Assembly: GCA_035235625.1 (NCBI GenBank) | Contig: CP141140.1 | Coordinates: 67,224,782 to 67,288,781 of the forward strand | Direction of reading: 5' to 3' | DNA length: 64,000 nucleotides | Source of the DNA: Saururus chinensis | Taxonomy: Eukaryota; Streptophyta; Magnoliopsida; Piperales; Saururaceae | Shown: piece after piece, positions 11,700 through 54,000 of the stretch | How the letters are laid out: each line of letters starts with the position of its first letter | Numbering within the stretch: the stretch's first letter is position 1 | The notes under the pieces: generated by a model | Databases searched by the model: none | What the model saw: the letters and a program-made list of their open reading frames with translations, nothing else | Told to the model about the DNA's origin: nothing | Made by a program: the position numbers and the translations under genes

Positions 11700-14055
11700 A
11701 ATGCCTTAATTCTTGTCCCTTTCCAAACTTGGCACACGTGTGTCCCACTTGATTTATGAGATGTCGGATTTCGAATCTATCACCCGAATTTTCAAAACCC
11801 TTTTTAAATAAATAACACACATGATAAATCACAACAATTTTTTTTTCTATTTAAATCAAATCAAATCAATCGACTAAAATATCCAGGTCATGATAACTGG
11901 GGTTCATAAATATGAATATCAAAACATATGATATTATTACACGTGTCAAAATTCAATAAATAGCAAGTTAACCCTCTAAGTAAAAGTGTGTCATTTGTAT
12001 GAAAATAAATAACTAAGTAAAGTTAGCTTTCGCGCCAGTAATTACAATTACTTACAAGATTGCAGAAGTAAGAAACTAGACCCTACTAGTGCAATATCAT
12101 CCTCAAACGCCCACCAACATCCCGATCTCGCAATGTCCCCATCTAAAGAACCTGTAAGCAAATATGATCAAATAGACAACAAAACATCTCTTCTCTTGGA
12201 GGAGCGTTTTAAAAGAACAAAAGTAAAATTTAATATTTTTCGGATCGGACCAACATCACCCGATGTTAGTTGTATACATACTCATCAGATAACATTTCCA
12301 ATGTTTCCAACAAGATCGGATTGAGAAGTAGTTCTGCTTAAAAACTACATTATCCTAAGAAGCATAACATTACACATGGAATGATTAAGTATTTTAAAGC
12401 AACATATATTTTATGCAAGTCCTTTAATCGTTTCACTTGTTCTAATTAACTCAGCAATATCAAACAATGTTATTAATTATCTCTTGAACCATTATTTGAT
12501 AATTAATATCCTTATCTAATCCCAATGACAGATACACTTATCAGATTTCAACCTAAGTGACAAATAATACACTCACCATTGACCACCCTCAAAGGTAAAT
12601 CCATGACGAACACCTTGGAATCCACCAGGAAGTACCATCACCCATCCTAGTCCATAAAGGACCTGACCGGAGTGGAAGGGTGTGGCCCACAACTGCACTT
12701 GAACAAAAGTGGTAGGAAAAGCCAACCAAGCAGGATGTCAACTAATCTAAATGCATGTACACTAAATGATCCTCAATAGATTGGAAGTGAGTCTAGCTCA
12801 CGCAGAACTCCCACCAACGGGGAGGTGCAACTACACAGTCAAATCAGCAGCTCCTCAATAGAGCTAAAACTTAGGAAACCATTCTGAACCCTATCTTGCT
12901 CATCAACAAGCCAGGATTTCGAATGGCTAGCCCAAACCCTATTAGTCCCTTCTAGACTAGGGTTTTAAATTCAGAACTGCCATCGATTCATACACCAAGG
13001 CAAATCATCATGTCAAAGGTTTTGTTTACTCTATGAACTAGTCCCAGACCGCTATGAAGTATTTTAGTCTTTATCTTGATTAGGTATTCTTGGTCAATCC
13101 AAAGCTATCTACCCTATCAATTAATCTTTCAATAATCTTAAGCTAGTGATAAGTTACTACGACAACATGAATATCAAATATTAAAATAATGAACAACATA
13201 AACAATCAAAACCACACAGGTCCAAGCGGATCATAATATCAATAACTAAATTCAATAATGATATTAGATTATTCAATCTTTTGTGCCCTAACCCTACTCG
13301 GGTTAACTTGTTAAATCTTTATGAAAACTGGTCATAATGCACCTAAGGCATTAAAGTAATTATCCAACATTGGATGTGGTCCTCTTTGCTCTCAAGTAAG
13401 TCTTTAACCTCTAAAAAGGTTTCAATATCACATTGGCCCGTTAATATCATCCACGTGAATACAGCCTGGTTCGCTCATAAGGGTATTTATATCTTTTTGT
13501 TTAGGGCTTCCCTAAACCCTAATGGGTCCAAAACTAATCTCAGGGGTACATCTTATCATTATGAAACCAAGGAAATTTTCTTGCTGTTTAGCGGGGTCAT
13601 AAACCTCTTTAGCTGATCCTAGTTCAATTAATAGTCTTACCTTTACCCTAGGGGTAAAACATTCATATATATATTTATTGAGATTTTCCCCCAACTTGTG
13701 CCTTGGTCGAAATTTAGTATACCCATGTAACTATCAATGACATTTTTAAAAAAAAATTTAAACCCACTCATAAGCCTCTTAACTGGAGCCCCTAAATCGG
13801 GTCATTAGCATCGTTCTATGATTGAACTCATAAGGGTAAATTAGTTATTTTATAGACTTTGGAATTTTTCCCCGATATCTTTTGTTTTTAAAATTTTATA
13901 TTTTTTCAACAAGCCACCTATGTGTTAGTGTGTGCATCAATGAAAATCAGTTTTAACTGTTAGTGGACACTGTCATGTCAATGATTGCGTCAGTGAAACC
14001 ATAAGACAGGTTGTCTAAAAAATTGTTGGGAGTAATGCAATTTTGAATTGCAGAG
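11700..14055 (+). mobile_element. Diverged LTR-like block
   Basis: No coding capacity. The stretch 12240-12350 resembles 49040-49150 inside the solo LTR at 48832-51028: GGATCGGACCAACATC, later CAAGATCGGATTGAG, then GTAGTTCTGCTTA. Order and strand are the same, so this is probably an old relative of that LTR. Ends and target duplication were not resolved. Confidence 0.35.
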
Positions 14056-17000
14056 GCATGATACGCGTGAAATATATCTATTTAGTAGTGTTAGAATAGA
14101 AATTACAAGTTGCAGTGTAACGTCCCGGATTTTTATTACAATTTTCTGCTATTTTTATCTGATCATTTTCAGCGATATATTGTGACGCTTTGGCGTATTT
14201 GACCTCGGTATTCGTACCCGTAGAGCCGGGTCTCGGGTCAGTCGTGGGCCACGGGCCTCGACACGTGATTCTGGCGCGAAAAATCTTTGAAGATCAGAAC
14301 TGCAGAGGATAAGTAAGAAAAAAAAACAGAGAAGCTCAGGCTCGGGCTCGGCCGAGCCCGATCCAGAAAATTCTGGAAGGAACAGTGACTTTCCCCCCCT
14401 CCCTTCGGCTTGTCTCTCTCCCAGCCGCCGCCGGCCACCGGTGAGCCATAGGGCCGCCGCACCGGCTCCGCCCCGGCCGTGCGACGGCAAGGGGGCCGCC
14501 GTCCCGGCCCCACGGCCGCTCCGCCGCTCCGCCCGCCTCTCCCCTGTTTTCCCGGTCCGTCTCTGCTCTCTCTCTGATCGTGCTTGGACAGCGCCGGTGG
14601 TGGCCGGTGGGCTTCGCCCGGCCTCCGTCCGGCCAGTCTCAGGCTGGCGACGACAGGGCCGCCGCCCTGGCCAGTCCCACCGGCCCCTAAGTTCTCTCTC
14701 CCTCTGGTGAGTTCTCTCCCTCCCTCACTGTCTTGTGTACCGCCGCCGCTGCCGTGGGCCGCCAAGGCCCGACCGGCCGGCCACAACTCCGCCCTGGGCC
14801 GGCGACGGTGGTAGGGCACCTCTCCCGGCCCCAGTGGCCTTTGCTCCACCGCGCACCCATTTTCTGCCTCTGCTCTGTTTTCGCTGGCGAACTGTTTTTG
14901 TTCAACAGTAGCCACCGACGGCGAGCTACGCCCGATCAGACCTCCGTCCAGCCCCGCCTTGGTCCGGCGAAGGTAGTGGACCATCTCTCCCCACCCGGTT
15001 CCACCTCCGCCCTTCCTCTTTCCTTTGGCCAGACACTTCCATCCGGTCCCCTGTTTTTGGCCCCTGTGTGTTTGGGACTACCGGCGCTGGAAGTTGCTGC
15101 CTTTGGCTGAAGACGGCTCCGCCCGGCCTCCGTCTGGCTCTGCCTCAGCCAAGCAATGGCCAAGCCGCCTCCTCGGCACCACCCCGGCCCGATTTGATCC
15201 GCCTCGCATCTCCCCTGTTTTTGTCTGTGACAGACTTTGGGGGCTGCGCCAGCGAGAGCCAACCTTCGGCTCGCCTCTTGCCCACCAGCCTTGGGATGAT
15301 GACGGTAGGACCGCCCCTAGCCAGGTCTACCGCCCCCACAGCCGCTCTGCCTGGGCTGGTTTCCCCCGGTCGGTCCCTCTTCCCTGTTTTGGTTTGAAGG
15401 GAATTGTGGCCGCGCTGGTGGTGAGCTTATGGTCGGCTAGCCTCGGCCTAGCGGCACTGGTGTAGCCACTTCCACCCAGCTCCGCCCGGTTACTAGGGCC
15501 CTGGCGTCACGGGCCAGAGCTGCCAGTAAACCCTGTTCGTCGTTGTGCCCCTAGGGTTTTCCACCCGTTATGGGCCATCGGGCATCATTGGATGTCGAAC
15601 ACCCTTGGACCACCTTAGTGTGGCAGGTTTCAGCTTGGGGATGGCTGGCCGCCCTAGTGCAGCACTGCCCGTCTTCTTTCGGCATGGGCCAGGTTCCCCT
15701 CGGCCGATTGTGTCTGACCGCTCTATAGAGAGCACCACGTGTTGCCCTTTGATCGTCCTACCTCCACCGGACACCATATGGCCTCTAGTCGGCCTACCTC
15801 GACACGACAATAGCAAAGGCCATCTTTGTCGGTCACCACCCTTGGGCATGGCCCTACCGCCCTTATGAGCTTTGGGCCGACACCGTCTAGCCCTCTCTTC
15901 CCTCCCTTTGGCCGCGTGTGCAAGTAGCCACGCGTGCGGGTTAGGGTTTAGGTGCCATTTTGACACCGCCTGACCGTCGGATGGCTCTGCCATCGTCTGT
16001 ATTTGACCATAGGAGTCCACCTCTCCTACGTCCTTGAGTGTCGCCCTCCGCCCTTATGTGGGCCCTTGTGAACGTGAAATCGACGCCGTTGGGTGCTGTC
16101 CACGGCCGATTTTGACGTCTTGTGATCGGTTTGGTATTGTTCAACCACCGGTCGAATTTTAGTGAGTACACCCTGCCTTTCGGTCGCACCTGCCACTCGT
16201 TGGCACGATCTTTCTCCCGGCCGCCCCTAGTGTGCAGCCGTGGATCGCAGATTTTGCCGCGTTGATTTTGACATCCCATTTGGCCGTGTGTAGTTCCGGC
16301 GCTTCCTAAACCTCGGGACAACAGCTCTCTCAGCTGGGCAATGGTTTTGACCGCCGACTCCGCCATCGACGCCACCACCGTCGTGTGCTCGCCATCAAAC
16401 GTCATGATTACGAGGTAGGGGAGCTTTGAACTCGTAAATTCATGACAGCATGCTTTGAATGAGTAGCAGCATGCTAGGCTTGCATGATTCTATGTTTGGA
16501 TATTAAATCATGACATGTATGCATGATATAAGATAGTGAATTATGCCACATTGAGGTACATGTATGTATGTATGTGAGTTGTAAGCATGGTTATGTATGT
16601 GTATGATGTATGGTGTATGCACTAGTGATGGCTAGCGAATGTGTTAGTGTGCCACATATGTGTGTGTTGGACACGCTAGTGATGGCTAGCGATATCGAGT
16701 AAGTTACGTATGTGGACTGTGTGGGCAGAGGTATGGGCGATGGACGGTAAGATTGGTAAGGGTTTGGTATGAAGTTGGATGTGGATTTGGACGTGTAAGC
16801 GCATGACGGAAGACAGAGAAAGTAAGTTTGAGGAGCGAGGATTTGAGATGGGTCAGTTTGGTTTGGAGCGTACATCAGGGGTTCGGTAAGTAAGAAGACT
16901 TAGGCTTGGAGCCTTATAAGGGTTTATTAGACAGTAAGAGCGTGTATAATTGTACAAGCATAACGTACAAATTATGAAGTAAAAAGTAAGAATAATAAGT

Positions 17001-21045: not shown

Positions 21046-23705
21046 TTAGATTTGATTTTTCTTGGGGTAATGAGTTAGTTGAATTATAATTTTTGAAGGT
21101 TTATTTTTTTTTTTAATTCAGAGTATTAGTGTCAGGCTTGATTCACCCAATTTTTACCTATTTAAAGGCATTTTTTCTATTTTCTTTAGTCAAAGGTGTG
21201 GGCCCCACCATGGGGCCCATGTCTGTGTGGGATGGCGTGCTCCTCATTTTGGCCACCAACCTTCTATTGATTTGTCTAAGTGGTCTTGGGTATGATTAAA
21301 TTCGGTTTTGAGTCAAGGGTGCGCTTAAATGGTCACTTAAGGCCCTTTCACCTATTTTCCAACCTAATAATTTAAATCCCAACCCATAAGTTTTAATATA
21401 AAAAGAAAACCCTGACCATTTGCCAAACGGGGAAGGGATGAGAATAGGAAGGAGGCTAAGCTCTACCCACATTTCCCTTAAGATAAGGTTTTCCCCCTTA
21501 ATCACCCCTTAATCTTTCAATTTTTGTCTTAATTAGGTATTTTCGTTTTTAACCTAACTATGTCATGAATTTATCATTTCGAAGGTTGATTTGAGTCTAT
21601 TCGTTAGTTTTGATTAAGACTAATCAAAGGCCGTAATTTTTGGGTAGGATTTCTTGAGGTTGAAGCTCGTTCAAGGGATTCACAAGCTTTATAGAGGTAA
21701 GGGTTTTTACCTTGATTAGTTTTCTTGCTTAAAATGCCATGATTGTAGGCTTATTTGAGCTTTTGATTCATCTTGATGTGTAATGGTAATTTATTAAAAA
21801 TATGTAATTTATGGTTATTTTTGTATGATTAAGTATAAAACATGTTATATCCATCATATTCTTGGCTTAGGTTTTGATTATATGTTGTTTTATGATGATT
21901 TTAGAATTTATATGGAATTTTAAAATATTTTCGTTCGAATTTCAAGAGGTAGAAGACGAACTAAAAAAGTGAAGTGTTTCAACTATTAAAATGGGCTGAC
22001 TGACCATTCAAACAACCAGTAGTTTAAATGGGTGACTGGCCGTTCGAATGGCCAACCGTTTGAAGGAACAATATGGTCGTTTTAATGACCAAATGACAGT
22101 TTTGTATGTTTGACCATTTTTTGTGGATTTTCGGGCTATTCTTGTTATTTCCTCATAATTCTAATCCACTATGACCATGATGGGTTAGGATGTGTTTTAG
22201 CTTATGTACGAAGATGACTACACTTGTTAAGGTTTAGTATGATGCTCTACTGGTTTTCAATCCGTATTTCAATTATTTCTTCTTCTTCTTCTTCTTTACT
22301 TCATGATTCCAACAACTTATAATCATGTAAATATGAATGCTTTTATATGTCAGTTTAATTATAAATGAGCCATGTTACACATGTTTTTGCTCAATTAAGA
22401 ATATATCCATGAATGTATCTTTTACCCGTTCTTATTTGACATAAATGAACCATGCTTCATACATTTGGGACCGATTAGGGTATTTTTACTTATGCTTACA
22501 TCCATTAAACATTGCTCACATATGTATTATTAGGGCTGTAAGAAACATGGGCAGGTCCGCCCGACCCGGCCCGAAATTTTATACAATTGGGCCTTAAAAT
22601 TTGTTCAATCAAACGGGTCGGGCCTGGAAATTTAGAGTGTATAAAATTTTGGGCCGGGCTCGGGCCTGGGCCAAAAATTCTTAAAAGCCCGGCCAAGCCC
22701 GGCCCGGCCCGGCCCTTTCCAGCCCGTTTAATCATATCCATTTTAATCATGCGGTCCTGCGTGTGTGTAGTTTGGTATCATCGGATAAATGCCAGTAGAG
22801 AAGCCCATCGTCTCCGCCGCTCTCCTACTTCGTCCATCGTTTCCCAATTCTTCCGCCGCTGTGCCTGTGCAACCTAATTTCTCCCCATTTACAGTTGTAG
22901 CCAGCAGAGAAGCCCATCGTCTCCGCCGCTCTGCAGCCCTAATTCCTCACCGCTCTCCTGCTTCGTTCATCGTTTCCCGATTCTTCCGCCATTGATTTAT
23001 TTTTGTAAAAGGAAAAGATGGGATGGGGGATTTTTCTGGTTGTTCTATCTTCTATCACCCTAGATCCTGAATTCACTTCTTTGTTTATTTACTTCCTCTC
23101 ATGTTTTAAGGTTGTAGCAGCGTGGTATTGGTCTTTCTACCTCTTTCCTTTGGATTTAAACACTCCTATGGAGTTTATATATGTTGGCAGTACCACCTGA
23201 ATTCAATATCCGTAAGTGGTTGTTTAGCTGCTTAAAATGTGGTCCCTTTGTTGGATCTGGTTCTCTGGAAATTGACTGAAGGAAGATCGCCCTCCCGATT
23301 TGCTGAGAGTAGTAGGTAACGTCATTCTTGCAACATTTTTTCCCCAGTTTCTTGGACAGTTTTTATGTTTATGTTCACTGGAATTTACTTGTGTATGTTT
23401 GTGTCCAGTGATAGTTCAATGAATCCTGAAGTGGTCAGTCTGTTGCCACCACGAAGGTAAGTGGGTATCTTATTGCTTTAAGTCCTGACGAGGAGGATGA
23501 ATCATATCATTTCTCTGTTTATGGTAGTTTAGGTGTTAATTAACGAGAAGTATTTGCTCTTGAATGATTGGGGCTTTCTGTAAGTACTATGAGGTGAGGA
23601 ACCAGCTGATTAAGCTAGCATATTATTATCTGGAAGTTGTTTATGTTTCATCAACCCCATGATCGTCTATCCCAGAAAGCCCCAGCACCAGATGATCATC
23701 ACATA

Positions 23706-24272
23706 GTTCCAAGAAAGATTGTTATTACCTAGTCTGTGAAAGATGTTCAGAGTTTAATGGATGATGACCTTGTTTTAAAAGACAAGATTGGCACATCTGT
23801 GAGTATCTCCTTTAAGTTTAGAGTGATGAAAACTTAACGCTGACTTGCTAATTTAATGAATCTACCGCCTTTGACATGTGGTTAATATCTAACCTACTTG
23901 GGATATGTCGGCTCAAGGAAAAAGTTTTAAATATGCATATCAAGGCTCGTGGCTTAAATGTGCAGAATTATCTCTTATTTTTGGCATTTATATGTCATTG
24001 AATTGTTTGTCATTTTGTCTTCCTTAGCAAGTTTACTTTTGGAGTCTTCCTAGTTGTGCTGGGAGCCAGGTAGAAATTTCTGTTTGTATTTAATATATAA
24101 TTGAAGGCAGTATATGATTTTTCTTTGGAAATACTTTTATCTATATTATCTTTGTTCTGCCATACTATATGTAGTTTAGATATGCATGGAATCAGATCTC
24201 TTAATCAGTAAGGAGCGCTTGGCAGAACTAATGGAACAAACAAATGCACTACAGAAGGGCAGAGAAGAATCT
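23706..24272 (+). pseudogene. MND1: MND1 (meiotic nuclear division 1) exon fragments captured in hAT
   Basis: Three exon pieces match plant MND1, the partner of HOP2 that promotes Dmc1-driven strand exchange in meiosis. Piece 1 (23709-23798) reads PRKIVIT, a stop, then SVKDVQSLMDDDLVLKDKIG. Piece 2 (24031-24069) reads VYFWSLPSCAGSQ. Piece 3 (about 24188-24272) reads ESDLLISKERLAELMEQTN and ends GREES at a GT donor. The order and spacing by introns match a genomic copy. The TAG in piece 1 replaces a Gln codon of the family. The acceptor before piece 2 looks changed from CAG to CAA. The N-terminal start and most of the C-terminal coiled coil are absent. This is not a functional gene as it stands; a chimeric transcript is possible. 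Confidence 0.8.
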
Positions 24273-24419
24273 GTAAGTGTGTTTGAGTTTATGCCGATTA
24301 GTTTATTGTATTAACACTCATGATCAAATTTCTTTTGGCATTTGAATTGGGTTCTCCTATAGCTTGTAATGGAAATTAATTTCTTTTTTATCTAATAATG
24401 TCTCTTAATATCTCATTTG

Positions 24420-24615
24420 AACAGGGAGGCCAAAGGCTAATAAGCACAACCTAAGCCTGAAGCTAACATGGAAAATGCAGCTAAACCTGAACCTTCATCT
24501 ACAAAGCCAAAAGCTCAAGCAGGACCAAGTAAAAAAGAAGAGCTAATTGAAGATGGAGGTGAAGATGATGATTCTGATGAGGATGACTCATATGCAGATG
24601 ATTCTAATGAGGTGC
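24420..24615 (+). pseudogene. Captured exon-like acidic/Lys-rich segment of unknown gene
   Basis: After an acceptor-like CAG at 24423-24425, the frame reads KPKAQAGPSKKEELIEDGG and then an Asp/Glu/Ser run (DDDSDEDDSYADDSNE) before a GTGCTT. MND1 has no such segment, so this appears to come from a second host gene. The Lys/Pro-rich and acidic pattern recalls the tail of plant HD2-type histone deacetylases or other nucleolar proteins, but this is a guess. Other exon-like bits occur near 24900-24960 and 25066-25121 (NLYFELKTQQSQYSPIDE). Confidence 0.35.
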
Positions 24616-27359
24616 TTTTACTCATTCTTCTTTATAATACTCAGTCGATAAAACCATGCATGCTTCTCTTGAACTAAATAATTTATTACATCTTTAGACC
24701 ATGCTAGGAGTTTACTTTTTGATTCTTTTCTTTTGGCACTTGTACCTTATGAATGTCCTAACATGGAAGTTTTGTGAGTTTGTGTTTTTTGGTTTGCAGT
24801 CACCTTGTTCTTTTATTCCTCTCTATTCCATGTCTTGTGTTCAGTCTTGTTATTAATCAATAGAAGCTTCATGGTAATATAGTTTGCTACCTCCCAAACA
24901 GGCAGCTGCAGTTGTCAATTCAGGATTGCTGCTAATGGCTTATGGCTGTGATGGGTATAATGTTTCCAGCAGTGCTTCATTTCACACATTCAGAGGTGCA
25001 AGAGTTACAATCTGAGCTATAACTTTCGAGGTTTAGTAGTTGCATTATGCTTGTTGCTTACGCAGGCAATCTTTACTTCGAGTTGAAGACTCAACAAAGC
25101 CAATATAGTCCCATTGATGAGGTGAAATGTGCTTTTGCACAGATTTTGATTTTTTTTCACTTAAGTTGGTTGAATAATTTCTAGTCTTAACATTTTGATG
25201 AGGTGATATGTACTTTTTTGCTGCTAAACACACTGTCCTTCACCATTATCCTATGTGTGGAGGCCACTTCCTCAATGTCCTCATGTAGTGAATAAATTTG
25301 AGCCCAATTTGTGTCACTCCTTGCCCTTAATGGAGACATCTACAAGTTGTCAATCAGATATTCCACTAGTGATGTAGTAAGATTCTTGTTCTGTATAGAG
25401 CTGCTCTTTTGCCATTGCTATAGTTTAAAATGGTCTATAAACTGGTTTTCTATTTCCCAACTTGTGATTGAGCTGAAATTTATGTCTTCACTAATGACTA
25501 CGTGGCAGACCTCTGGGCACATATAAAGGTTCCCTCCCTTTCTCTCTATGTGTGTCTCTGGGTGAATATGCATGTTCGTTTTGGGTAAAAGCATACAAAG
25601 TTATCTCCAAAATATGGTTATGCTTTTTTGTAGTATAATAATTTCATATACTAACTTTGTTTTATTTTAATTTTGTGTAGGCTAATGGTGAAGATTGTCA
25701 AGATGCACCGAGGGATCAAGTCTTATCGAAGACTTTTTCCTCTTTATTTATCTTAAATAATCTCACAATTTGTACTTAGATAATGTAAACAATTGGAACT
25801 ATTATATTTGCAAACTTCGTTTTCAACACTTAAATGTATTAGATACTTTGATTTAAATAATTTTTGTTATTATAAGAAAAAAATTTATATCAAGTCAATT
25901 TCGGCCCGAAAGCCCGTGGCCCGGCCCGAGCCCGTTGAAATTTTGGATTGGGCTGAAATTTTAAACTCAGTTATGGGCTTTGGGCCTATTTTTTTTAAAA
26001 AAAATTTTATGGGCCAGGCTTGGGCTTGCCCTAGCCCATTAGGGCCCGGCCCGTTTGCAGCCCTATGTATTATGTTGCATACATCATTAGAATGATTTAT
26101 AAATAAAGACTAATCATGTTTAACAAGAATTAATCGATTGGATGCCGTAGATTTTCTAGATTAGCTCATTGAAAATTAGTTTTACGTCTAAATGGATGAG
26201 GTTTTACCTACCTTTGAGGACAGGTTTCCTCCCCTGGGGAGAAGAGCATAATGCTATAATGAGTTAATTTAATAATTCTTTCTCAACCTGAAATCCAGGC
26301 TAGTTTGTTTGTGTGCACCAGCTTACCAGGGGGTACTTTCCCCATTAAGTAATTACCAAAACTGCTTAAGACTTCCTTTCTAGGTTTTCCAGGGAGAACG
26401 GGTCTGCTTAAGCTTTGGCCAGGATAAGTAGGGTAGTTTTCTCAATTGTGAGACATTCATTGTAGTATTTATGCATGTGTATGATTGATAACGCTCATTT
26501 ACACAGGTTGTGTAGGGACAATGAAGCTTATATTTACACCAAATGCATATGGATTGATTACTCTTAAACATGCAGGATGGATGTGGTTTGATACAATTGA
26601 GTATGCAGAGTGAATGTGAATGATATTAATTTATTTATGCAAGATGGGAATGAATAATGGAAATTAATGATTGTACAGGTTGTGCATGTATTTTATTAAT
26701 GATGAATGAGCCTATCATGCACAGATGGTGTGAATGTGAATATGAAAACTTATTGAGCCCATGATGCACAAGTTTTGCATATGTGTTTATGAACTATGTT
26801 GGAGACCATGATGCATAGGTTTAGTTTTGATGCATGGTGAGATGGTTTTAAAATATGAACGTTCTTCATGTTGTCATGAGCCTATTGTGTTTGTTTAAAA
26901 CCCTTACTGAGCCAAGCTCACCCCTTTTTTGTTTGTGGTTTTGTTTTGGGGCTGAATATTGTGACATGAAGCTACTCATGGTGGACTATTTTGCGAGCAT
27001 TAGGATGACTAGATACGTGATATGAGAGGGCTAGTTACCTTGAGATGCTTTAGACTCATGTTACATTTGAAGTTAGAAACTTCATTATGTTTTATTTTCT
27101 TATAGATAGCATGTCATGGCTTTAGACTTGTTATAGCCTTAGGGCTTGGAATTATGTTCATATAGATGTTGTGGTGTTGTGTTGGACTAAGTTGTTAATT
27201 AATCACTTTTACGCTCCTTTATTTTGCTTTTGCACAAAGGGCGCATGCTATGTACTTCAATGAGCACCCAGGATGGGTTAGTCTTCTGCTTCGTCGTGCC
27301 GCGTCCCACCTTCTTGGATCAGGTTCGGGTCAAGGGAGTGTGGCGGGTTGTGACAAATC

Positions 27360-36075: not shown

Positions 36076-36310
36076 TATAATAATTGTGTTAGAATACTAT
36101 CTCGGGAGGCCCAAGTCAGGCCCACACAATTCTGACCGGTGGCCCAGTAATAAAAAAGCCCAAATCAACGAGCTCTTTACAACTACCGTTTTGAACATCC
36201 CCAACGTCCCCTCTCGGCCCGGGATCAGAGCTTCTTGAGCTAGAAAGTAGAGGGAAGAGCTGGAAGCAGAAGAAGAGCGATTGGCCTCCCTCATCTCAAA
36301 ATGCCCCGAC

Positions 36311-39142
36311 ATGAGAGCCCTCCGCCAAATCCACGCCCGCCTCATTACCTCCGCCTCCCGGCGCTCTTTCGGTCTCGCCAAGATCGTCGCCTTCTGCGCG
36401 CTCTGGCCCGCCGGCGACATTGCCTACGCCCGCCGTGTGTTCGACCAAATTCCCAGACCGAACGTCTTCACTTACAACACCATGATAAGGGGCACCTCGA
36501 AAGACCCTGACCCGCACAAGGAGCCCGTTCGCCTGTACCAGCAGTTGCTTCGGGTTGGTCCAGGCCGCCCCAACAGTTTCACCCTTTCTTTTGTGCTGAA
36601 AGCTTGCGCGCTTGTTGCAGCGTTTGACGAGGGCCTGCAGATTCATGGACACGGTTTTAAATATGGCCTTGATGCTAGTCCGTTTGTCGAGACTGCGTTG
36701 CTGAATTTTTATGCTAAATGTGAAGAGCTTGGCGTTGCGAGAAGGGTATTTGATGGAATTGCAGAGAAGAATCTGGTTGCGTGGAGTGTGATGATCAGCG
36801 GCTATGCACGGGTGGGTATGGTTAATGAGGCACTTGGTTTGTTCAGAGATATGCAGAAGGCACAGATTAGACCGGATGAGGTTACTATGGTGAGTGTGAT
36901 TTCTGCTTGCGCAAAAGCAGGAGCCTTGGAGCTGGGGAGATGGGTCCACACTTTTATTGACAAGAATGGAATCGAGCTTGACCTTGAGCTCAGTACTTCA
37001 CTGATTGATATGTATGCCAAGTGTGGGTGTATTGAACTAGCAAAGAGCATATTTGATGGAATGCCTGTGCGCGATACACAGGCATGGAGCTCAATGATTG
37101 TAGGTTTGTCTATTCATGGGCTAGTGGAAGATGCACTTGATTTGTTTGAGAAAATGGAAGAGGCAAAGGTAAAGCCTTTGAAATTTTCTTTAGAATTTCG
37201 CTTTCACGTACTTGTGATTTTCTTGCGAGGTGAAAAAACTTGTGACACAAATCAAAATGTCTTTCCTAGTCTTGTGCTCTTGCATTGGTTAAGAATTTAA
37301 GACCACTGTTTAACTTCCTCTATTATGTTTAACTGAAATTGGTGACTAATTTATTCTTCTGATATTGAGCATGAGTCTCCCATATTATAAGGGTTCAAAC
37401 TATGAACTATGCTCCGCTGGAATCAAATCTGTTGATGAATCGATCAGGCCAAAAAATGGAAATAAACCTATGCGAAGTACTTTTGGCCAATGCATGGTCT
37501 TTATTGAATCGGTTTTCGCCAAATAAAGAAATTACTTCTATGCTTATAAAAAGCATTAAAATTTAAGATTAAATTATGATTTATTATAGTGTATTAACCA
37601 TTTCAATTGGCTTTTCTTTGGTTAGCAATTAAGAAAATTGTGGTTCAATCTGGTTGATCAGAATCTGTTGATTCAGCATCATTTCCAAGTTGATTGGTGG
37701 ACTAAAACCAAGTACACCTCATCTAGAGAAGGTTGTAAGCATAAGAGATATTGAGCTGTTCTTAAGAATCTAGAATATTTGATTACTGGTGATTATAATC
37801 ATCCTATGAGAACCTGTCTAGTGGAAAGGCTTCGGTGTGGTGGTGGGTCATGTAGTTATCTTAAGCATAAGAATGAAAGACAATGTAGAGTCAGTGACTC
37901 AGTGTCACCATCCTCAGTTTGCTGTATTGAGCCATAGGATGACAAAACAGTAAATTTAAAGTGCACCTATAGTGGAAATTTGAAATATTTAAATCACTTG
38001 GATTTCTGAAAAATCTCCTCATGGAGGAGATTATCCATAAATCATGATTCTTTCATTTTTTTTCCACAACAACAGATTTCAAGGCAGATTTGTAGGAAAT
38101 TTTTTTGGCTTTGTAGAGAGGATTGTCACTTTGGGATACCAAACAAGATTTAGATTTTTAGCTTCTTGGAAAATCAAATCTAGGTGTTACCAGACACACT
38201 ATTGCACAAACCTTGCACAAATCCTATGAACAATCTATTGCCAAACAGACCCTAAGTGTAGAATTTTTAAATCATTCTGATTTCTGTGGGTGATACTTTG
38301 AAGTTATCATGCAGGTTAAACCTAATCATATAACCATCATTGGCATTTTATCCGCCTGCACTCATGGTGGACTAGTATCTGAGGGCCGTAAACTTTGGTC
38401 AAGAGTGCATGAGTTTGGAATTGAACCAACAATGGAACATTATGGCTGCATGGTTGATCTACTTTCTCGGGCTGGCTTCATAGAAGAAGCTTTTTTACTA
38501 GCTGAAACCATGCCAATTAAACCAAATGCCATTATTTGGCGGACCCTACTTGTAGGGTGCAAGAAAAAAAAAGTTTTGGATAAAGGGGAGTTAGTTGCCA
38601 AGAGATTGCTCGACCTAGAACCAATGAATGCTGAAAATTATGTTCTCCTTTCAAATTTTTATGCCTCAAGTTCCAAGTGGGAGAAAGTAAGTTATGTGAG
38701 GAAAAAAATGAAAGACAATGGAGTCAAAGCAGTCCCTGGGTGCAGTTCTATCGAAGTGGATGGTCTTATACACGAGTTCTGTATGGGTGATGAATCACAC
38801 CCAGAGGCTAAGGATATAAGGGAAATGTTGAGGGACATAAGTAAGCGTGTTCATCAAGCTGGGCATGAGCCATGGACATCAGTTGTCTTGCACGATGTGG
38901 GTGAGGAAGAGAAAGAGAGTGCTCTTTGTGAGCACAGCGAGAGATTGGCTATAGCTTATGGCTTGTTAAAGACTAAGGCACCGGTGGTCATTCGGGTGGT
39001 GAAGAACCTGCGGGTTTGTAGTGATTGTCATGAAGTTACAAAAATCATCAGCAAAATCTATGGCAGAGAAATTGTTGTTAGAGATCGAGTTAGGTTTCAT
39101 CAATTTGTTGATGGAACATGTACATGTAAAGACTATTGGTAA
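36311..39142 (+). CDS. DYW-type pentatricopeptide repeat protein (PCMP-H class)
   Basis: Predicted organellar RNA-editing factor: PPR motifs bind a transcript and the C-terminal DYW domain carries out C-to-U deamination. There are two exons, 36311-37168 and 38315-39142, joined in phase 0 at GCAAAG/gtaaag...atgcag/GTT, giving 561 residues. PLS-type repeats fill about residues 50-355 (NVFTYNTMIRG, NLVAWSVMISGYARVG, LIDMYAKCG). E/E+ motifs follow (PGCSSIEVDG at about 427-436). The DYW domain has the deaminase HSE (493-495), CSDCH (521-525) and terminal DYW. Editing specificity and organelle cannot be read off; plastid or mitochondrion is inferred. The ATG at 36311 is the first in frame, yet the open frame runs back to 36251 and family-like text (LASLISKCPDMRALRQIHAR) begins before it, so the true start is uncertain. 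An out-of-frame ATG lies at 36301. Unspliced reading would end at 37300. Confidence 0.9.
37169..38314 (+). other. Intron of the PPR gene (1146 bp)
   Basis: GT at 37169 and AG at 38313-38314, with preserved phase 0 and protein continuity EEAK/VKPNHIT inside a PPR motif. Most plant PPR genes lack introns, so this is notable. The last 350 bp carry short inverted words (AAATCACTTGGATTTCTG near 37991 and AAATCATTCTGATTTCTG near 38268), suggesting a MITE-like insertion within the intron. Confidence 0.85.
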
Positions 39143-40194: not shown

Positions 40195-41314
40195 ACCTTT
40201 GATGCAACTCTCTTACAGAAATGGGATAGAATAATTGAGGAAAATCTACAATTCCAAGTTTTTAACAACCATTCAATGTGGAATAGATGGTACAAAAGCT
40301 GGCCGCTGCAAACCACCGCATTGCATTATTGTGACATTTTTTCACTCAATATTGTATCATTGCACCCCATATCTACCACTTTGTGGAAAATAAGCTGCAC
40401 AAGCTGCTAATGCTCTTCTTCTATGTACGACAGTTACAAGACAATTCAGATTAAGTTGCTCTAATGGAATGTTGGGTCACCAGTCTTCTCCATTAGGCAC
40501 CGACTTTGGCCTTTTGACTGGTGGATTGCAGGGGTTGACAGTTAGCTTTAGATGCAGGTTGCAAATATCTGAGCAACTGTGGATATCAGCGCCATTGTAA
40601 AAGCTCTTTGACTTATTTGATCCATAAAAAGAATATAAATATATTAGCTTTCTGTTCAAGACTGAACAGAGATATTGATCTTCACAATCTAAGGACCAAC
40701 ATTTTTTTTGTTTTTTCTTTTGGACTTTCGGGTGCTTAGTTGCAACTTGCAAGGTGGGCGTCCATTGTGACAAGTACTTGAGTCATACTCTCAGCATTCT
40801 TCCCTTATAAGTTCCTAAATAAATTTTAATCCCTCTTCTCCCATCTCCCAAACCCCCATGTTATACAAACTTTGTTGCCAAAAGCTCCAGCTTCTACAGT
40901 TAGATAGTGGTTTTTATTTTTAAACAGAAAGTTGGATAATGGCACATAAAACCCCACATATGAAGCTGGAGAAAATCATGTAGACTATCGGTGTCATTCT
41001 CTTCTCATCCGGGAAGCTGCTAGTCAAACGGGATTGGAAGAAATTATCGTCTTTAAGTTCCTGGTTTGTTAAGCTTTAGCTACTAGGCATGTTTGCGTGT
41101 TGCCATACGACAGACTGAGCTATGCACTGAAGTTGGTTCATGGAGCCATAGAAAACACAGCAGAAGATAATTAACTGCAGTACGTGCTTTCCCTTTTTTC
41201 TTTTTGATATGCTGACATCACTTGATTAGGCTGCCAATCCGCATTTTCCCTTGTTAAATTGTGTGACTTAATTTGGAAGAGCTCTCTTTTCTTGTTGCTT
41301 GTGCTTCACCATCT

Positions 41315-41452
41315 GCTGAAATGTTCTGCAGAGGGTTGATTACTGCTATATCTTTCTAATGCTAAAATGTTCTGAAGAGGGTTGATTACTGCTATATCTT
41401 TCTAATGCTAAAATGTTCTGAAGAGGGTTGATTACTGCTATATCTTTCTAAT
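41315..41452. repeat. Tandem repeat, 3 x 46 bp
   Basis: Units start at 41315, 41361 and 41407 (GCTAAAATGTTCTGAAGAGG type). Units 2 and 3 are identical or nearly so, which suggests recent expansion. Confidence 0.95.
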
Positions 41453-45815: not shown

Positions 45816-48800
45816 TGTCAAGACCTAGTTCTCTAGATATATTTTTTTTTTTACAATATAATAATTTTTACAAAATGATACACATATTACAATCAACTTT
45901 GGGGAATTGAGGCAGTGGGTTTGAGGCATAAGATTGATGAGCAATGAGGAGTCTTCTGCATTCATCTTCTATCATCTCAACGCATACATGTACATACAAA
46001 ATAGTGGCAAACCACCTATGAGCCAAAGCTCAATAACTTGCCTACAACTACTCTAGATCATAGTAAACAATGCACCCTGACCATACTCATGCAACTACAT
46101 GCATCATGCTAACATGAATGCAATTCCATTTACATCCTTAGTTATATTTCATATCATGCTATGCATATGTTATATCTTAACACAATGCATATCATAAAAA
46201 TATCCTTTTTGATACTTTCCACGAACTAATAGAAGTTACCATCCTAAGATAAACATATAATCTTGAACTTAAACTAACAAGACTACCCACATGTCATAGT
46301 TAGAATAAATAGCAAGAGTAAACATGAGACATTCCACCCTAACCATACTTAAGTAAACCGTATGACCATAATTTACTAAAAGCATAAACAATCATCTTCC
46401 GCTTTACTTGGACACCCTTCACAGAAGGGGGCGTGTTCCTTGGATGCCCATTTGCAGCCAACACCACTACTAATGGTATTACATACAGTTCCACCAAAAG
46501 AACGCTAGAGCTCACTTGGACTATTTCTTTCTTTTTCATGTGTGCACTCAGCACAAAAAATATTCTACTTTCTTATCTTGTTACCCCACCTAGGTACTCC
46601 CATTTCTACCCCATGGCGTATCAACATGGAAAATATCGACAAGCAATTCATTCAATCAACATAAACAAACACCAAAAATCAATTGTCTCCACATTAGATG
46701 ATGTTTAAGGTATTTTCTATTACCCGTTAAATTATCATTTGTTAATTTATGTCTTTTGATAAATCCCTTGCCTGATCCAAGGCATGGACTAAACCAAATC
46801 AACAAACAGAGCATTCATCATGTGATCAATATGTATAGAATACTTTATTCAAATTTAATACTCATTCACATGACAAACCAATTATTTGTATAAAATACCA
46901 TTTTGCCCTTCCAATCCCGCTTAATCACACGATATTTGTAAGATCTCTTAATTTTGTCTTTCTTTTAATTGTGTTTGTTTGCCGGTTTGATTTAATTTTT
47001 AGGGTTATGGGTTAGTTAATTATAAATTTCTTAAGGTTTAATTTTATTTTTAAAAGTGTTAGTGTTAAGCTTGATTTACCTAAATTTTTACCTATTTAAA
47101 TGTATTTTTTTAATTTTCCCTTAGCTGAGGAGCAGACTCCACCATGGGACCCATGTCTGTGTGGTAGGGCATGCTACCTATTTTTGCCTTTAATCTTCTA
47201 TTAGTTGTCTAAGTGGGTTTGGGTGTAATTAAATTTATTTTTTATTCAAAAATACCCTTAATTGGTCACTTAGGATGTTTTACCTTATTTTCCAACCTAA
47301 CAATCCTTATTTTAAGCCCAAAAATCCTTACTATATAAGAAAAAATCCTAGCCATTTTCTAAATGGGGAAGAGCTATGTTTAGGAGTGAGGCTTGCTCTA
47401 CCCTCATTTTCCAAAGGAGAAACCCTTGTCAATGTAAGTTTTCCCTTAATCACCCCCCTAATCTTTCAATTTTTGGTCTTAATCACATCTATCTTCATTT
47501 CTTCTATTTTTATTCTTGATTTTCCCCCATCAAAATCATGTTTTTAATTTCGATTTAGAACCCTAATTAGGTTATTTTCATTTTTAACCTAAAGATGTCT
47601 TAAATCTATCTTTTCCCAAGTTGATTTGAGTTTATTAGTTAGTTTTAATTAGGTTTGACTAAAAGCCTTAATTTTTGGGTAAAATTTTTTGAGGTTGAAG
47701 ATTATTCAAGGGATTTAAAGGCTTGTTAGAGATAAGGGTTTTTTACCTTGAAAGGTTTTCTTCATTGGAATGCATGGTTATGAGTTCTATTTGAATTTTT
47801 CTTCAACTTGATGTATAATGGTGAGTTAAAAACATGTGATTTATGGTTATATGGGTATGATTAAGCATGAAAATGATTAGATTCATCATGTTCTAGGTTT
47901 ACATTTTGATTATATAAGGTTCTATGATGATTTTTGAATTTAGATGAAGTTTTGGAATATTTTTAGTTTGAATTTTGAAAGGCTGAAGATGAACTAGAAA
48001 AGTGAACTATTACGTGCGTTTGAATGGTCTAATAGACCGTTTGAATGGCCAGGCGTTCAAACGGGTTGCAAGGCCTTTCAAATGGCCAAACGCAGTTTTG
48101 GTGAAAATGGCTTATTTTGTAGATTTTCGACCATTTCTTGTTCTTTGGTCATGATTCTCATTCTCTATGGCTATGTGAGTTATGAATACTTATAATTGCC
48201 ACATTAATTGCATATGAACTTCTTTAGATTATAATTTAGCTTAAGCATGAAGATGACTATACTTGTCTAGGTTTAGCATGATGTTATATTTGTTTTCAAT
48301 CCGTCTATCAATGATTTCTTCACATTTACTCCATGATTCTAGTAGCTTATAACTATGTTAAATTATAGATTCTTGTACATGTCACATTGATTATAGGTAA
48401 TTTATGTTCCACGTTTTAGTTTAAATATGAACACTACCATGAGTGTATATTCTTGCTTATATGACTTTATTTGTCACAAATGGACCATGTTACATGCACA
48501 TATAGACTTATTAGAGTATGCTTATTCACGCTTACATTTGTTAAACTTTGCTCATGTATGTATCATGTCTCATGTATCATGGAAATGATTTCTAAGTGAT
48601 GATTTCTCGTATTTAGCCATGATTAATCGATTGGATGTCGTTGTTTTCCAGATTAGCCGCTCAGAGGGTTATCGAATAAGTTTTACGTCCCTTGTGGATA
48701 GGGGTGTAAACGGCGTCCGTTTGTCCGGTGTTCGTTCGCATCCGCGTCCGTCCGCACTAAAATGAACAACATTGATTTTTGTCCGTCTTAAATACGGACG

Positions 48801-48831
48801 GACATTGACAAGGGTTAGCCGTGTCCGCAGC

Positions 48832-51028
48832 TGTAACACCCCGACCCGCACCACCTGACCTGGACCGGGGTTAGATCGGAAAACACAATCGGAGTGTCAA
48901 AAATTAGTGGAAAAATTAAAACCGACTGACCAAGAGTTGCAGACTCTGAGTGCGAGAGTCATAGCGTTCATCTACGCACTACAGAGCTTTAACGTTCCAT
49001 TGTGCGTAGATCAGAACAAACCTAATTTTATAACTAATTTGGATCGGGCCAACATCATTTTATCGTTGGTTGCCTACGTACATATTGGATACCATCTCTG
49101 ACGTTATTCCAATACGATCGGATCCGAACGTAGTTCTGCCTAACGGCTAGTACATTCACCAGACATCAGAAAATCATATACGATAAAATACATATACTTT
49201 ATATCCGAATAATTCATTCGGAATCCGACGAAAATCTTATAACTCATCGGAGTCAAACGAAAGCCAATAAATCAGTAAAATACACTTCTCACATAGGTGA
49301 GAAGAACACTAATAAAACACACATCCCACTCTATCATAGAGCGGAGCAAAACACACTACATAGCATTTTGGATCATATCAAATCCTATCAAATCATATCG
49401 GATTTTATCCGACCATACTGGTCATATCAGATCAGAGTATGTCAAGTCATAGCAGAGCATTTCAGATCACAACCAAATAAATCAAAGTAGATTAAATAGA
49501 AACATATCAGCATGGATCACATCATAGCAAATAATATATCTTAATTAGTATATTACTAATTAAGATATGCATTCATATAAATCATATTAAACTAAAAGGT
49601 CAGAAAAGTGTACTTCCCTCCAATTCCGGAAATGACGATGTTCGGAATTGCTCATTTCCTTAGAGCATCTGCCCTTTCTGATTTGGAGATGGTGGCCAGG
49701 ATCTCCTCTGACTTCGAAACACTTTACCCTTCCTTCGCCCGCAGATGGCGGACAGAACCTCCCCATGCCTCGAGACATTTCCCTTAGATAGGGTTGCTAA
49801 CTTGAGGAATGGACGCTTCCATTGCGTAGATCACCCTCAAATTAGCTAGGAACGCCTCAAGAATGACTCGAATCGGACTTAAAATGAGTGAGAAACGAAG
49901 AACAGAAGTTTCTGAATATGGGAGAGAATACAGAAACGTGGGAGAGTTTCTCCTTTTCTTCTCTGGATGTTGTGGATGCTATTTATAGAAAAACTGGATG
50001 AATGTGAGGATGACACGTGTCAATCCTATCTACTTCCATCATCAATCCTATCTGCTTCGTCAGCAATCCTATCCACTTACATTATCAATCCTATCCGCTT
50101 TGTCAGCTATCCTATCCACTTACGTCATCATTCTTATCCGCTTTGTCAGCAATCCTATCCACTTTACGTCATCGATCCTATCCAGAATGATATTATTTTA
50201 TTCAAATAATATCTTAATCTCAAAATACGATAACTTCCAACCTTGACGTTGGAATCGTACGTTCTTGTTGCCGATGGACTCGTGTTGACGAGCCCTTCAA
50301 AATAAGAACACCCATGGGTATGTTATCCCGCACTTTTGTGTAGGTCCCGCCCATATAGCACGCTTCCCAGGGCTGTAGCTTTCGCTCCCGACCTCCATTT
50401 TGTGCGTTCTTTGATTCGTTACACTCGTCACTACGAGCTCTACCCGGATACGGGGATTTCACCTAAAAACCCCCTAACACTGGTCATAAATTACCAAATT
50501 ACCCTTAACCCCCTGGGTTAAGCATAATCGCCACGCGACGCGCGCGAGACACGCAGGGGACACGCGGACGGCCGTGTTTGCGCACCGTTTCCACGGCACA
50601 GCGGCTTGGCTCCATCTCTGGCTCGGCTCTGGCTCGGCTCGGCTCGGCTCGGCTCGGCTTGTTGACATAAGCTATTTCGTCTTTTCTTGAATATTTTCAA
50701 AACGCGATAACTTTTTATCCCGAAGTCAGAATTGCACGATCTTGGTACCAATGGACTCGTATCGACAAGCCCTTCAAAACTAGACCCCACATGGGTAGCT
50801 TATCTTGAACTTTTAAAGTGGGTCCCGCCCATGTAGCTCGCTTCCCGAGGTCATAACTTTCGTTCCCGACCTCTGTTTTGAGTCTTCTTGGATGCGTTGT
50901 GCTCGTTACTTCAAGTTCTAACCAAATACAGAAGTTTCAACTCTTAAAACCCTTAAAGAATTAATATATATTACATAATTACCCCTAACCCTTTGAGGTT
51001 AAGCGTAATCGGAACACAGGGTACCACA
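48832..51028 (+). mobile_element. 2.2-kb solo LTR inside hAT element 2
   Basis: Starts TGTAACACCCCGACCC and ends CAGGGTACCACA, with a perfect 5-bp duplication GCAGC on both sides (48827-48831, 51029-51033). No polyprotein is present. It contains a 22-bp-unit minisatellite (TCAATCCTATCCGCTTTGTC type, 50030-50180), a (GGCTC)n run at about 50622-50660, and an internal duplication. Confidence 0.85.
50215..51015 (+). repeat. Diverged internal duplication in the 2.2-kb solo LTR
   Basis: The segment 50220-50535 recurs at about 50700-51012, offset of about 480 bp. Shared words are CCAATGGACTCGTATCGAC against CCGATGGACTCGTGTTGAC, GGTCCCGCCCATRTAGC, and TTAAGCRTAATCG at both ends. The copies are well diverged, so the duplication is older than this insertion and probably family-wide. 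Confidence 0.75.
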
Positions 51029-54000
51029 GCAGCCGTCCGTGTCCGCCAACTATATATTTTATTATTTTTATTTTTACTTTATACTAACTTACTAACCTAT
51101 GTCACATAGTTAATCTTCACAATAAGATTGTAAAAAATACATATTATACTCTCACATGTCTTTTATAACATCATTATTTATTTATTTATTAGATTAGACT
51201 ATCTTACTATTATTATAACTTATTTTTTAATTAATTTTTTACTAACCACCCTTAATTTAAGAACAAAAGACTTTCACCTTCATTCCGTCCGTTTTTGTCC
51301 GTGTCCGTCATGGACAAATACGGACGGACAAGCACTTGGTCCGTGTAAAAACGGACGGCTGCGGACATGCCTTGTCCGCGTCCGTCCATTTACACCCCTA
51401 GTTGTGGATGAGGTTTTACATTCAATGGACGGGGTCTGTGTCCCTTGTGGACGGTTCCTCCTCGGGTGAGAAGGGAGGAATGATATAATGAGTTAAAATG
51501 ATGTGTATTTTGAACTTGAGAATCCAAGTTGGTTTGTATGTGTGCACTGGCTTACAAAGGGGTATTTTTCCCCGTTAGGGAACTTACCCAAACTGCTCTA
51601 ATTTTTCTTTTTAGGAATTCAGACCTTCCCCGTTAAGGATTATTCTAGGTGAGTAGGTCTGCTTATGCTTCAAAAAATTAAGCAAGGTTGTTTTATCAAT
51701 TGTGAGACATTGACCAAATGGGTTATGCATGTGTATGGAATATAATGCTCATTAACTCAGGTTGTGTTGGTATAATGATGCTTATTTTATACATGGTATG
51801 TATAGAATGATTATATTTAAATATGCAGGATGGAATGTGGCTTTATGCACTTCATTATGCAGGGTGAATGCGAATATTGATATTTACTTCATGCAGGAAT
51901 GAACCATGAGACTTAAACAATTGCACATGGTGTGCATAGGTGTTATGGACTATGATTGAAGCTCTAATGTACAGGTAGCATGAATATGTTTATGGAATGT
52001 GATTTATCTCATGATCTACATGTGACATGAATGTGTATATAGAACATAACTTATCTCATGATGCATAGGTGTAGAGAATGAATATGTGATGCATGATTAA
52101 TTTGAGAATGCATGTAGTGTTTTCATGAGTTTATATTCCGTATCAAACCCTTATTGAGCTAAGCTCACCCCGCTTTTGTTTGTGGCTTTTGTTTTGGGGC
52201 TATATGTTGTGTCATACAGGTGCTCTGGATGGTTTTTATGTTGAGCATAAGGATGGATATGCGCCATGAGAGGGGATAGTTATTTTGGTTGTGTTGACTT
52301 GCCTTATGATATGTTAGACTTATATTTGACTTTAACTCATACTATGGTTAGCCGGTGTTGGCTTGTGTAGCCCTTGAGGCTTGATATTATGTTGTTATTT
52401 AGATGATGTGGGTATTGTGTGGACTAAGATTGTTAATTAGTCTCTTTTATCTTTCCTTTATTTGCTTTTGTACAAATGGCTTATGTTGAGTACTCCATTG
52501 TTCTGAACCAAGGATGGTTAAGTCTTCCGCAATTCTTTTCACTTCACTTCATCGTGTTGTGTCTTGCCTTCCTTAGACCGGGTTTAGGTCAGGGGTGGTG
52601 TGCTAGGGCATTTCATACTTCCCAAAATATCATTGTGTGGTCTTAGCCTATGAATATGAACTTCAAGATACATAGAAATGGAGAGTTTCATACTTCGGGT
52701 AAGTTGGGTGATCGACGTAGGCACATTACCGCTCTTAGTCTTACACATGGCAAAACCCTCATTTTTTACTGTTCAAGCTTCTTATTTTTAATTAAAATAC
52801 TGAAACACATTTGATTGACCTACAATTTTGAACACATTAAATTCCAAATGTCTAGTGTCCAAAATTAACTCTACTGATGAATAATTATTAAAAATATTTT
52901 TTCTAGAATTTTGAAAATAACTACATCATGCAAAATTTCCTTGACAATCAAGACTCTTAAGTTCATAACTAGGTCAAAACGAATTGACTCAGGGTTTTTC
53001 CATTAGAATCATGACTCATAGGATAAGGGCCCTAGAAATTTTGACGGTGGTATGACACTTTTTAGTACTTGAAAACAGTGTTAAACTCCCAACTATATAG
53101 ACTAGAATATTTGGACCTTTTATGATTCATGAAAATTTAATAATTAATCTAAATACAGAAAAACTATCAAAAAAATCAAAAACAAAACTAGAGTCATTCA
53201 TGAGTCTTTGTAAACTTTCCTAAGGTTATTCTTTGGGGTGATATTACCGAAACATGAACTGAAATTAGGGTATTAATGATTGGCAAAAAATGGGTTCAAT
53301 AAGAAATAAATGGTTGACCTATAAAACTTCGTAAAAACACTTGAAGTTTTAACCAAATAGACTTTAAGGTTCCCATAAAAATTTTAGATTGAAGTGAGCA
53401 CCACATGGTCCGGAAACAATCCACCCTTTCTAGGTGCACAGTGAAAATTGAGAGCAAAGCATCACATTCAAAACAGTTTAATTCTAAACCGAATGACATC
53501 CTCCATTAACAAGCTCTTGAAAATCATGATCATGACATGAAACATACACTTGAATCCATCATAGAGATCATACATAAGTTCAAACACTAGAATATGATCC
53601 AAAACATATGATATTCATCAAAATTCTAAAGCATACATAAATCATGTACAAGACATGCTTCGATTCCTATACTTATCATTAAACAGGAGGAGTGTAGGTA
53701 GTCCCTACCTTTTCAATGAAGAAAACTCCTTCCAATGCATTTCAATCCTTGCTTGGCCTCAGTAGATGATCCTCCTTCTTCTCCAAGCTTCAAGGAGGGT
53801 CTTGATGACTTCCAATCACCAAGAGATCCAAGGAAGAGAGAGGGAGAGAGAGGTGGTTAGGGAAAACAAGAGGGGAAGAGAGGGCCCAACCAAGGGGGAG
53901 AGAGGGGAGGGGTGGGGAGAGAGAGGGAGGGAGGGGAAGAGAGAGAAGGAGAGATGGGAAGAGAGGAATTTTTATACAGTAGGTTCCCACTTAGGCTAAC

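Follow-up and report, generated by a model that had tools for sequence, protein, structure and literature searches.

A Pack-hAT element of Saururus chinensis carrying MND1 and HD2 gene DNA probably received through CACTA elements

A 64,000-nucleotide stretch of the Saururus chinensis genome (C1:67224782-67288781, hereafter "the window") was analysed together with the genome from which it comes, searched as 516 Mb in 11 contigs. At positions 22531-26065, on the plus strand, it contains a non-autonomous hAT-type element, delimited by its ends and an 8-bp duplication, where fragments of two host genes, MND1 and an HD2-type histone deacetylase, lie side by side. Comparison with related loci makes it quite probable that this is a Pack-hAT with second-hand cargo, whose gene DNA passed from the genes to a Pack-CACTA element, from there to a hAT and finally to a second hAT form, the one found in the window. 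The original prediction described a chimeric Pack-hAT with DNA captured from at least two genes: both genes can now be named (loci L036 for MND1 and L044 for HD2), but direct capture from them is not supported, because CACTA elements contain this fusion too, with identical TAG, +1 frameshift and substitutions, and because a CACTA end persists in two sister hATs.

Structure of the element and its gene pieces

The element begins with TAGGGCTG at 22531 and terminates with CAGCCCTA at 26065; its short inverted ends, TAGGGCTGTAAG and TAGGGCTGCAAA, are of the (T/C)A(A/G)GG type, which is the motif of the hAT superfamily. The 8-bp duplication TGTATTAT is perfect on both sides (22523-22530 and 26066-26073), as originally reported for duplication and terminal sequences alike. 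Two TAGGGCTG/CAGCCCTA pairs are found 0.2-20 kb apart in the window: the flanks of this element agree at 8 of 8 positions, those of the other pair at 2 of 8, and an 8-mer was common to random site pairs in 7 of 193,703 draws. An empty site, that is a diverged relative of the insertion site lacking the element, is located at 48404-48657 on the plus strand, 22.5 kb away and still inside the window. When the flanks are joined, with the element and one duplication removed, they align to it at 71% over 258 columns, with 11 gap positions, none of them at the junction; the target is present there in a single copy, reading TGTATCAT. The flanking 8-mers had been taken for a target duplication, and this comparison bears it out, the empty site being a relative at 71% rather than an allele. 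The surrounding DNA belongs to a larger diverged duplication (21051-27289 against 46986-52530, 68-75% in pieces), the second copy of which has about 2.8 kb extra between 48657 and 51442.

No transposase had been noticed in the element, and none was found among the 10 of its open stretches scanned with Pfam, where nothing scored above a cut-off. With host gene DNA between transposon ends and no transposase in these stretches, the element is of the Pack-TYPE kind. All its parts are on the plus strand. The hAT 5' end (22531-22992), 75-87% similar to L021, L022, L023, L031 and L033, contains GGCCCGGCCC-type subterminal repeats. It is followed by a module common to the hAT copy L031 (95%) and to L032 (90%), at 22993-23654 (element 463-1124), and by a fragment of an exon-like stretch (HQPHDRLSQKAPAPDDHHIVP) that also occurs in other copies of the hAT family, at 23649-23708, joined to the module at CA(T/C)CAA; for the hAT exon HQPHDRLSQ..., Pfam gave no match. 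MND1-derived DNA, comprising part of exon 2, exons 3 and 4 and introns, occupies 23709-24345 (element 1179-1815), and HD2 DNA 24351-24875 (element 1821-2345). The next segment, 24876-25877, is CACTA-derived: its counterpart in CACTA copies links the HD2 piece to the CACTA right end. It meets at a short match the hAT 3' end (25873-26065), which is 88% similar to L031, 82% to L023 and 86% to L024.

That three pieces of MND1 exons follow one another in order, separated by introns, as originally read, is confirmed: the pieces (23709-23798, 24031-24069 and about 24175-24272), once joined, score 25.1 bits against PF03962 (cut-off 23.5), and the element is 88.8% similar, over 650 columns and introns included, to the host MND1 gene. 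The first piece covers no more than the 3' part of exon 2; compared with the gene, it contains a TAG, a 1-base insertion (+1 frameshift) and a 3-base deletion. The host gene, a parental locus to be sought in the same genome according to the original prediction, is intact-looking and lies on the minus strand at C4:8450027-8456675; eight of its exons, including exon 1, were read. A PDB search with the MND1 pieces gave 10 hits, the best of which (E = 0.0017) are to designed repeat proteins, while Mnd1 itself (4y66) is found at E = 1. A weak MND1-like match with a TGA is present at C4:8501778-8501900, about 48 kb from the gene.

The second gene piece had been described as an exon-like acidic segment, and stands as such at 24425-24611. 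It can now be identified as an HD2 exon, because element 1821-2345 is 89% similar to L044 (C1:11492200-11497200) and L044 is, to judge from its exons, an intact-looking gene encoding an HD2-type histone deacetylase: two joined exons match PF17800 at 51 bits and HDT1 in PDB (7vrr) at E = 3.7e-20, while a C2H2 finger is found when two later ones are joined. The acidic exon alone found no match in PDB. HD2 deacetylases are not known outside plants.

The MND1 frame is broken in the window element, and a protein from it is therefore unlikely. The element is most likely a passenger with broken frames, and any effect on MND1 would be exerted by small RNA; antisense, also suggested originally, would need transcription from the other side, because both gene pieces are in sense order on the plus strand.

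Related copies and the direction of transfer

Copy counts for the hAT family are lower bounds, 40 of the 477 first-look candidates having been scored. A whole-genome search for copies with the same ends, as proposed with the original prediction, found three at full length (one on C1, two on C5), 93.5-95% alike and 94-95% similar to the window element, and two relatives on C8, an older form with related ends, the same cargo and a different 5' half. Perfect 8-bp duplications, as expected for hATs, flank the window element, L023 (ACACTCAT) and L031 (TACATGAC); in L022 the two sides match at 7 of 8 positions, in L021 the duplication GTGACAAG has 4 extra bases on the left side, in L033 it is not clear, and L024 lacks its first 28 or so bases. 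The presence of several copies at different sites indicates mobilisation after capture, as expected of Pack-TYPE elements. In L032 (C1:25983324-25990024), BED, RNase-H-fold and hAT dimerisation domains precede the shared module, with an F-box exon in between, and hAT 5' subterminal DNA lies about 1 kb further upstream of the transposase domains; no 3' end was seen at this locus, which is possibly an autonomous hAT with its own cargo.

The same gene pieces are carried by CACTA elements. The three that were read at both ends all feature 3-bp duplications: L045, about 4.5 kb long, has CACTA ends, a TTC/TTC duplication and parts of the HD2 gene; L026 (TAT/TAT) and L025 (AGT/AGT) have MND1 joined to HD2, and in L025 MND1 extends from intron 1 into intron 4. 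The MND1 helix-turn-helix (HTH) exon alone occurs 27 times in the genome, 23 of them above the Pfam cut-off. By our assignment, these loci comprise the gene, 7 Mutator-like (MULE-like) elements, 5 hATs, 9 CACTA-type elements (L025 and L026 read at both ends, the other 7 assigned by shared inner sequence) and 5 others. The lesions of the window copy recur in the CACTA group: the TAG is found in 7 of the 9 aligned CACTA-type copies (L028 and L029 cannot be read at this position), and the +1 frameshift, GATTG in exon 2, is common to hAT copies, L025 and L027. The hAT consensus differs from the base shared by gene and MULE at 41 sites, 40 of which are readable in L025: of these, L025 agrees with the hAT at 37 and with the gene at 2, and differs from both at 1. 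In the trees, CACTA and hAT copies are set apart from gene and MULE for MND1 (100%), while for HD2 the five hAT copies stand apart from all CACTA copies and the gene (99%).

Passage in the opposite direction, with CACTA elements capturing from a hAT, was considered and rejected, because the CACTA copies reach further into MND1 than the hAT ones, back to intron 1, and no match to hAT ends was found in the CACTA loci.

Traces of the transfer are found in L023 and L024, where the order is HD2 part, CACTA right end, about 20 bp of non-hAT DNA, hAT 3' arm. The CACTA right end is intact in L023 (at 4880, downstream of the HD2 part) and decayed in L024; in both, the flank that follows it fits the pattern GTCTCAACCTT[C/T]GTTTCT. 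In all 38 other places scored, the hAT 3' arm begins 20-33 bases further on. Compared with one related hAT (L057), about 210 bp are replaced in this form by about 2.3 kb, with a CCA match at the left junction of the CACTA-derived insert.

These data are consistent with the following series of events. A CACTA element would have taken up HD2 DNA, as seen in L045, and its relatives would have come to carry an already broken MND1 fused to HD2, as in L025 and L026, HD2 uptake presumably preceding the fusion. Some 2.3 kb of CACTA DNA would then have taken the place of about 210 bp near the 3' end of a hAT. This insert, which begins within MND1 exon 2 and continues to the CACTA right end and the adjacent 20 bp or so of non-hAT DNA, accounts for the structure of L023 and L024; gap repair or template switching may have been the process. 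The cargo, without the CACTA end, would later have passed into a sibling hAT of L031 type, and this form, with transposase presumably supplied in trans by autonomous hATs, would have jumped to at least three places, where three copies with target duplications are found.

The passage into a sibling hAT is suggested by similarities along the window element. Its first 260 bp are 82% similar to L031, against 75% for L023 and 78% for L024; the module at element 463-1124, 95% similar to L031, is absent from L023 and L024. The cargo between the arms, in contrast, is 95% similar to L023 and L024. It was apparently an L031-type hAT that acquired the cargo, because arms and module are closer to L031 and the cargo is closer to L023/L024. 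The left joint lies at CA(T/C)CAA; on the right, the CACTA side of the joint has TAAGA in common with an L023-like partner and only TAA with L031. Joints of this kind would be left by template-switching repair, as described in animals (PMC8277862), which may have been the process here. An even hybrid of an L031-type 5' half and an L023-type 3' half does not fit: both arms are closer to L031, and therefore only the cargo is of L023 type.

Several observations weigh against transfer through CACTA. No donor CACTA carrying the 20-bp flank came to light, a search for the flank pattern having given two matches, both of them hAT copies, and the window copy itself does not retain a CACTA end. MND1 trees are weak inside the group formed by hATs and L025 (31-72% at the nodes placing L025, L023 and L024), and one of the two places L025 within the hAT copies; the larger tree omits L028 and L029, and the smaller one is made of rows longer than 500 bases. 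The site counts given above exclude the MULE copy L015 and columns lacking an 80% consensus. The second deletion of exon 2 differs in size between L025 and the hAT copies; finally, each of the two fusion carriers has one mutated end, the left one in L025 (CCCTAC) and the right one in L026 (GTAGTA).

The structure of L023, with an intact CACTA right end and hAT arms on both sides, might also stem from a CACTA element inserted into a hAT, followed by an internal deletion that removed the left part of the CACTA together with adjoining hAT DNA. Such a nested insertion is rather improbable: the 20 bp or so preceding the hAT 3' arm are unlike L031, L033, L057 and the 38 other places scored, and neither L023 nor L024 showed a CACTA left end. 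It is very unlikely that a hAT took MND1 and HD2 directly from the host genes, the CACTA copies being independent or derived from the hAT. Exons, introns and their order do agree with the genes; this, however, would leave unexplained the TAG, the +1 frameshift and the 37 of 40 readable derived sites common to L025, the longer MND1 segment of CACTA copies devoid of matching hAT ends, and the CACTA end inside hAT copies.

A third carrier of MND1 and other features of the window

MND1 exons 2-8, with introns, are also found in a separate carrier, a MULE-like element of about 9.3 kb. Six copies have a common left end (L034, L035, L037-L040), and a seventh matches inside. The three copies read at both ends all feature 9-bp duplications (CCCAGTATT, TTAAATTTA, TTAAAAAAA). 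Long terminal inverted repeats (TIRs) were not found: the terminal 200 bases show inverted matches of chance length or off register only, the longest of which, 39 columns at 79%, is present in one of the three copies. The class is therefore named MULE-like, non-TIR. L035 also contains a cellulose-synthase piece (PF03552, 56 bits).

Over the seven exons, all six copies compared with the gene have a rough ratio of replacement to silent substitution rates (dN/dS) of 0.09-0.19, and four of the six have no stop (two of these with 1-3 unaligned bases). Among the copies themselves, 9 silent and 19 replacement codons are nearer to neutral; the low dN/dS may be a legacy of constraint on the donor gene, and not a sign of constraint on the MULE-like copies. 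The MULE as source of the MND1 of CACTA elements is not supported by the bases at MULE/gene differences: at 21 sites where the MULE consensus differs from the gene, CACTA agrees with the MULE at 12, with the gene at 8 and with neither at 1. The pattern fits two captures from a changing gene, a common capture being also compatible. In MULE-like and CACTA elements, MND1 DNA starts at nearly the same point of intron 1 (gene about 2575-2578; breakpoints at about 2575 in oriented L036, about 2545 in L035 and about 5662 in L025x), and the preceding DNA looks unrelated between the two. The coincidence may indicate a common capture, a fragile site or chance.

Elsewhere in the window, a G+C-rich block (14001-16000, 0.60-0.62) has open frames on both strands; the G+C content is 0.34 in the preceding kilobase and 0.47 in the following one. 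Two open stretches (36251-37300 and 38294-39142) resemble, by eye, a pentatricopeptide-repeat protein ending in DYW. A 46-bp unit is repeated in three tandem copies, 96% alike, at 41314-41452. Rfam, at gathering thresholds, gave no match in the window.

Comparison with known elements, and implications

Gene capture had been said to be less described for hATs, which holds as a matter of degree; Pack-hATs and gene pieces in hATs are nonetheless published: a maize and rice survey (PMC8903248), grapevine hATs with gene pieces, such as the Hatvine-6 family (PMC2528002), and maize Ds elements with gene fragments (Ds2, Ds-l4, filler DNA; PMC3260210). The maize and rice Pack-hATs share with the window element hAT ends, the 8-bp duplication, host gene fragments and a non-autonomous state, and fusion of smaller elements is proposed in the same survey as a source of new cargo; here, in contrast, the cargo is traced to CACTA through shared broken sites and a retained CACTA end. 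Ds2 and Ds-l4 are likewise Ac/Ds-type hATs with gene fragments including introns. A figure legend of that paper derives inserted DNA from genes, long terminal repeat elements, other DNA transposons or intergenic DNA; a chain from gene to CACTA to hAT does not appear in the portion at hand. In grapevine, captured exons and introns are found in all cut-and-paste superfamilies, with a ULP domain in both MULE and CACTA and a cellulose synthase gene in a MULE; there, the spread of ULP among MULEs is ascribed to repeated capture or loss, and not to passage between superfamilies. Pack-CACTA elements have CACTA ends around host gene pieces (Catoni et al. 2019, as cited in a 2026 review, PMC13317346), whereas in this genome CACTA would act as a donor to hAT. 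Neither capture of MND1 nor a traced CACTA-to-hAT transfer of a gene fusion was found in a literature search whose coverage excluded most subscription papers.

A broader view, offered tentatively and as rather unlikely in full, is that captured gene DNA circulates between superfamilies in this genome, elements preferentially recapturing the cargo of other elements, so as to form a shared pool. MND1 would be a focus of it, in hAT, CACTA and MULE-like elements, possibly with a shared breakpoint, and some MULE-borne, largely open-frame copies may still matter to the plant. If elements do recapture each other's cargo, per-element counts of gene captures would be too high, the apparent preference for certain genes would be in part inheritance between element families, and gene pieces could outlive the family that first took them. 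Since parents, intermediates and junctions are all found in a single genome, this case has enough resolution for testing how hATs acquire DNA.

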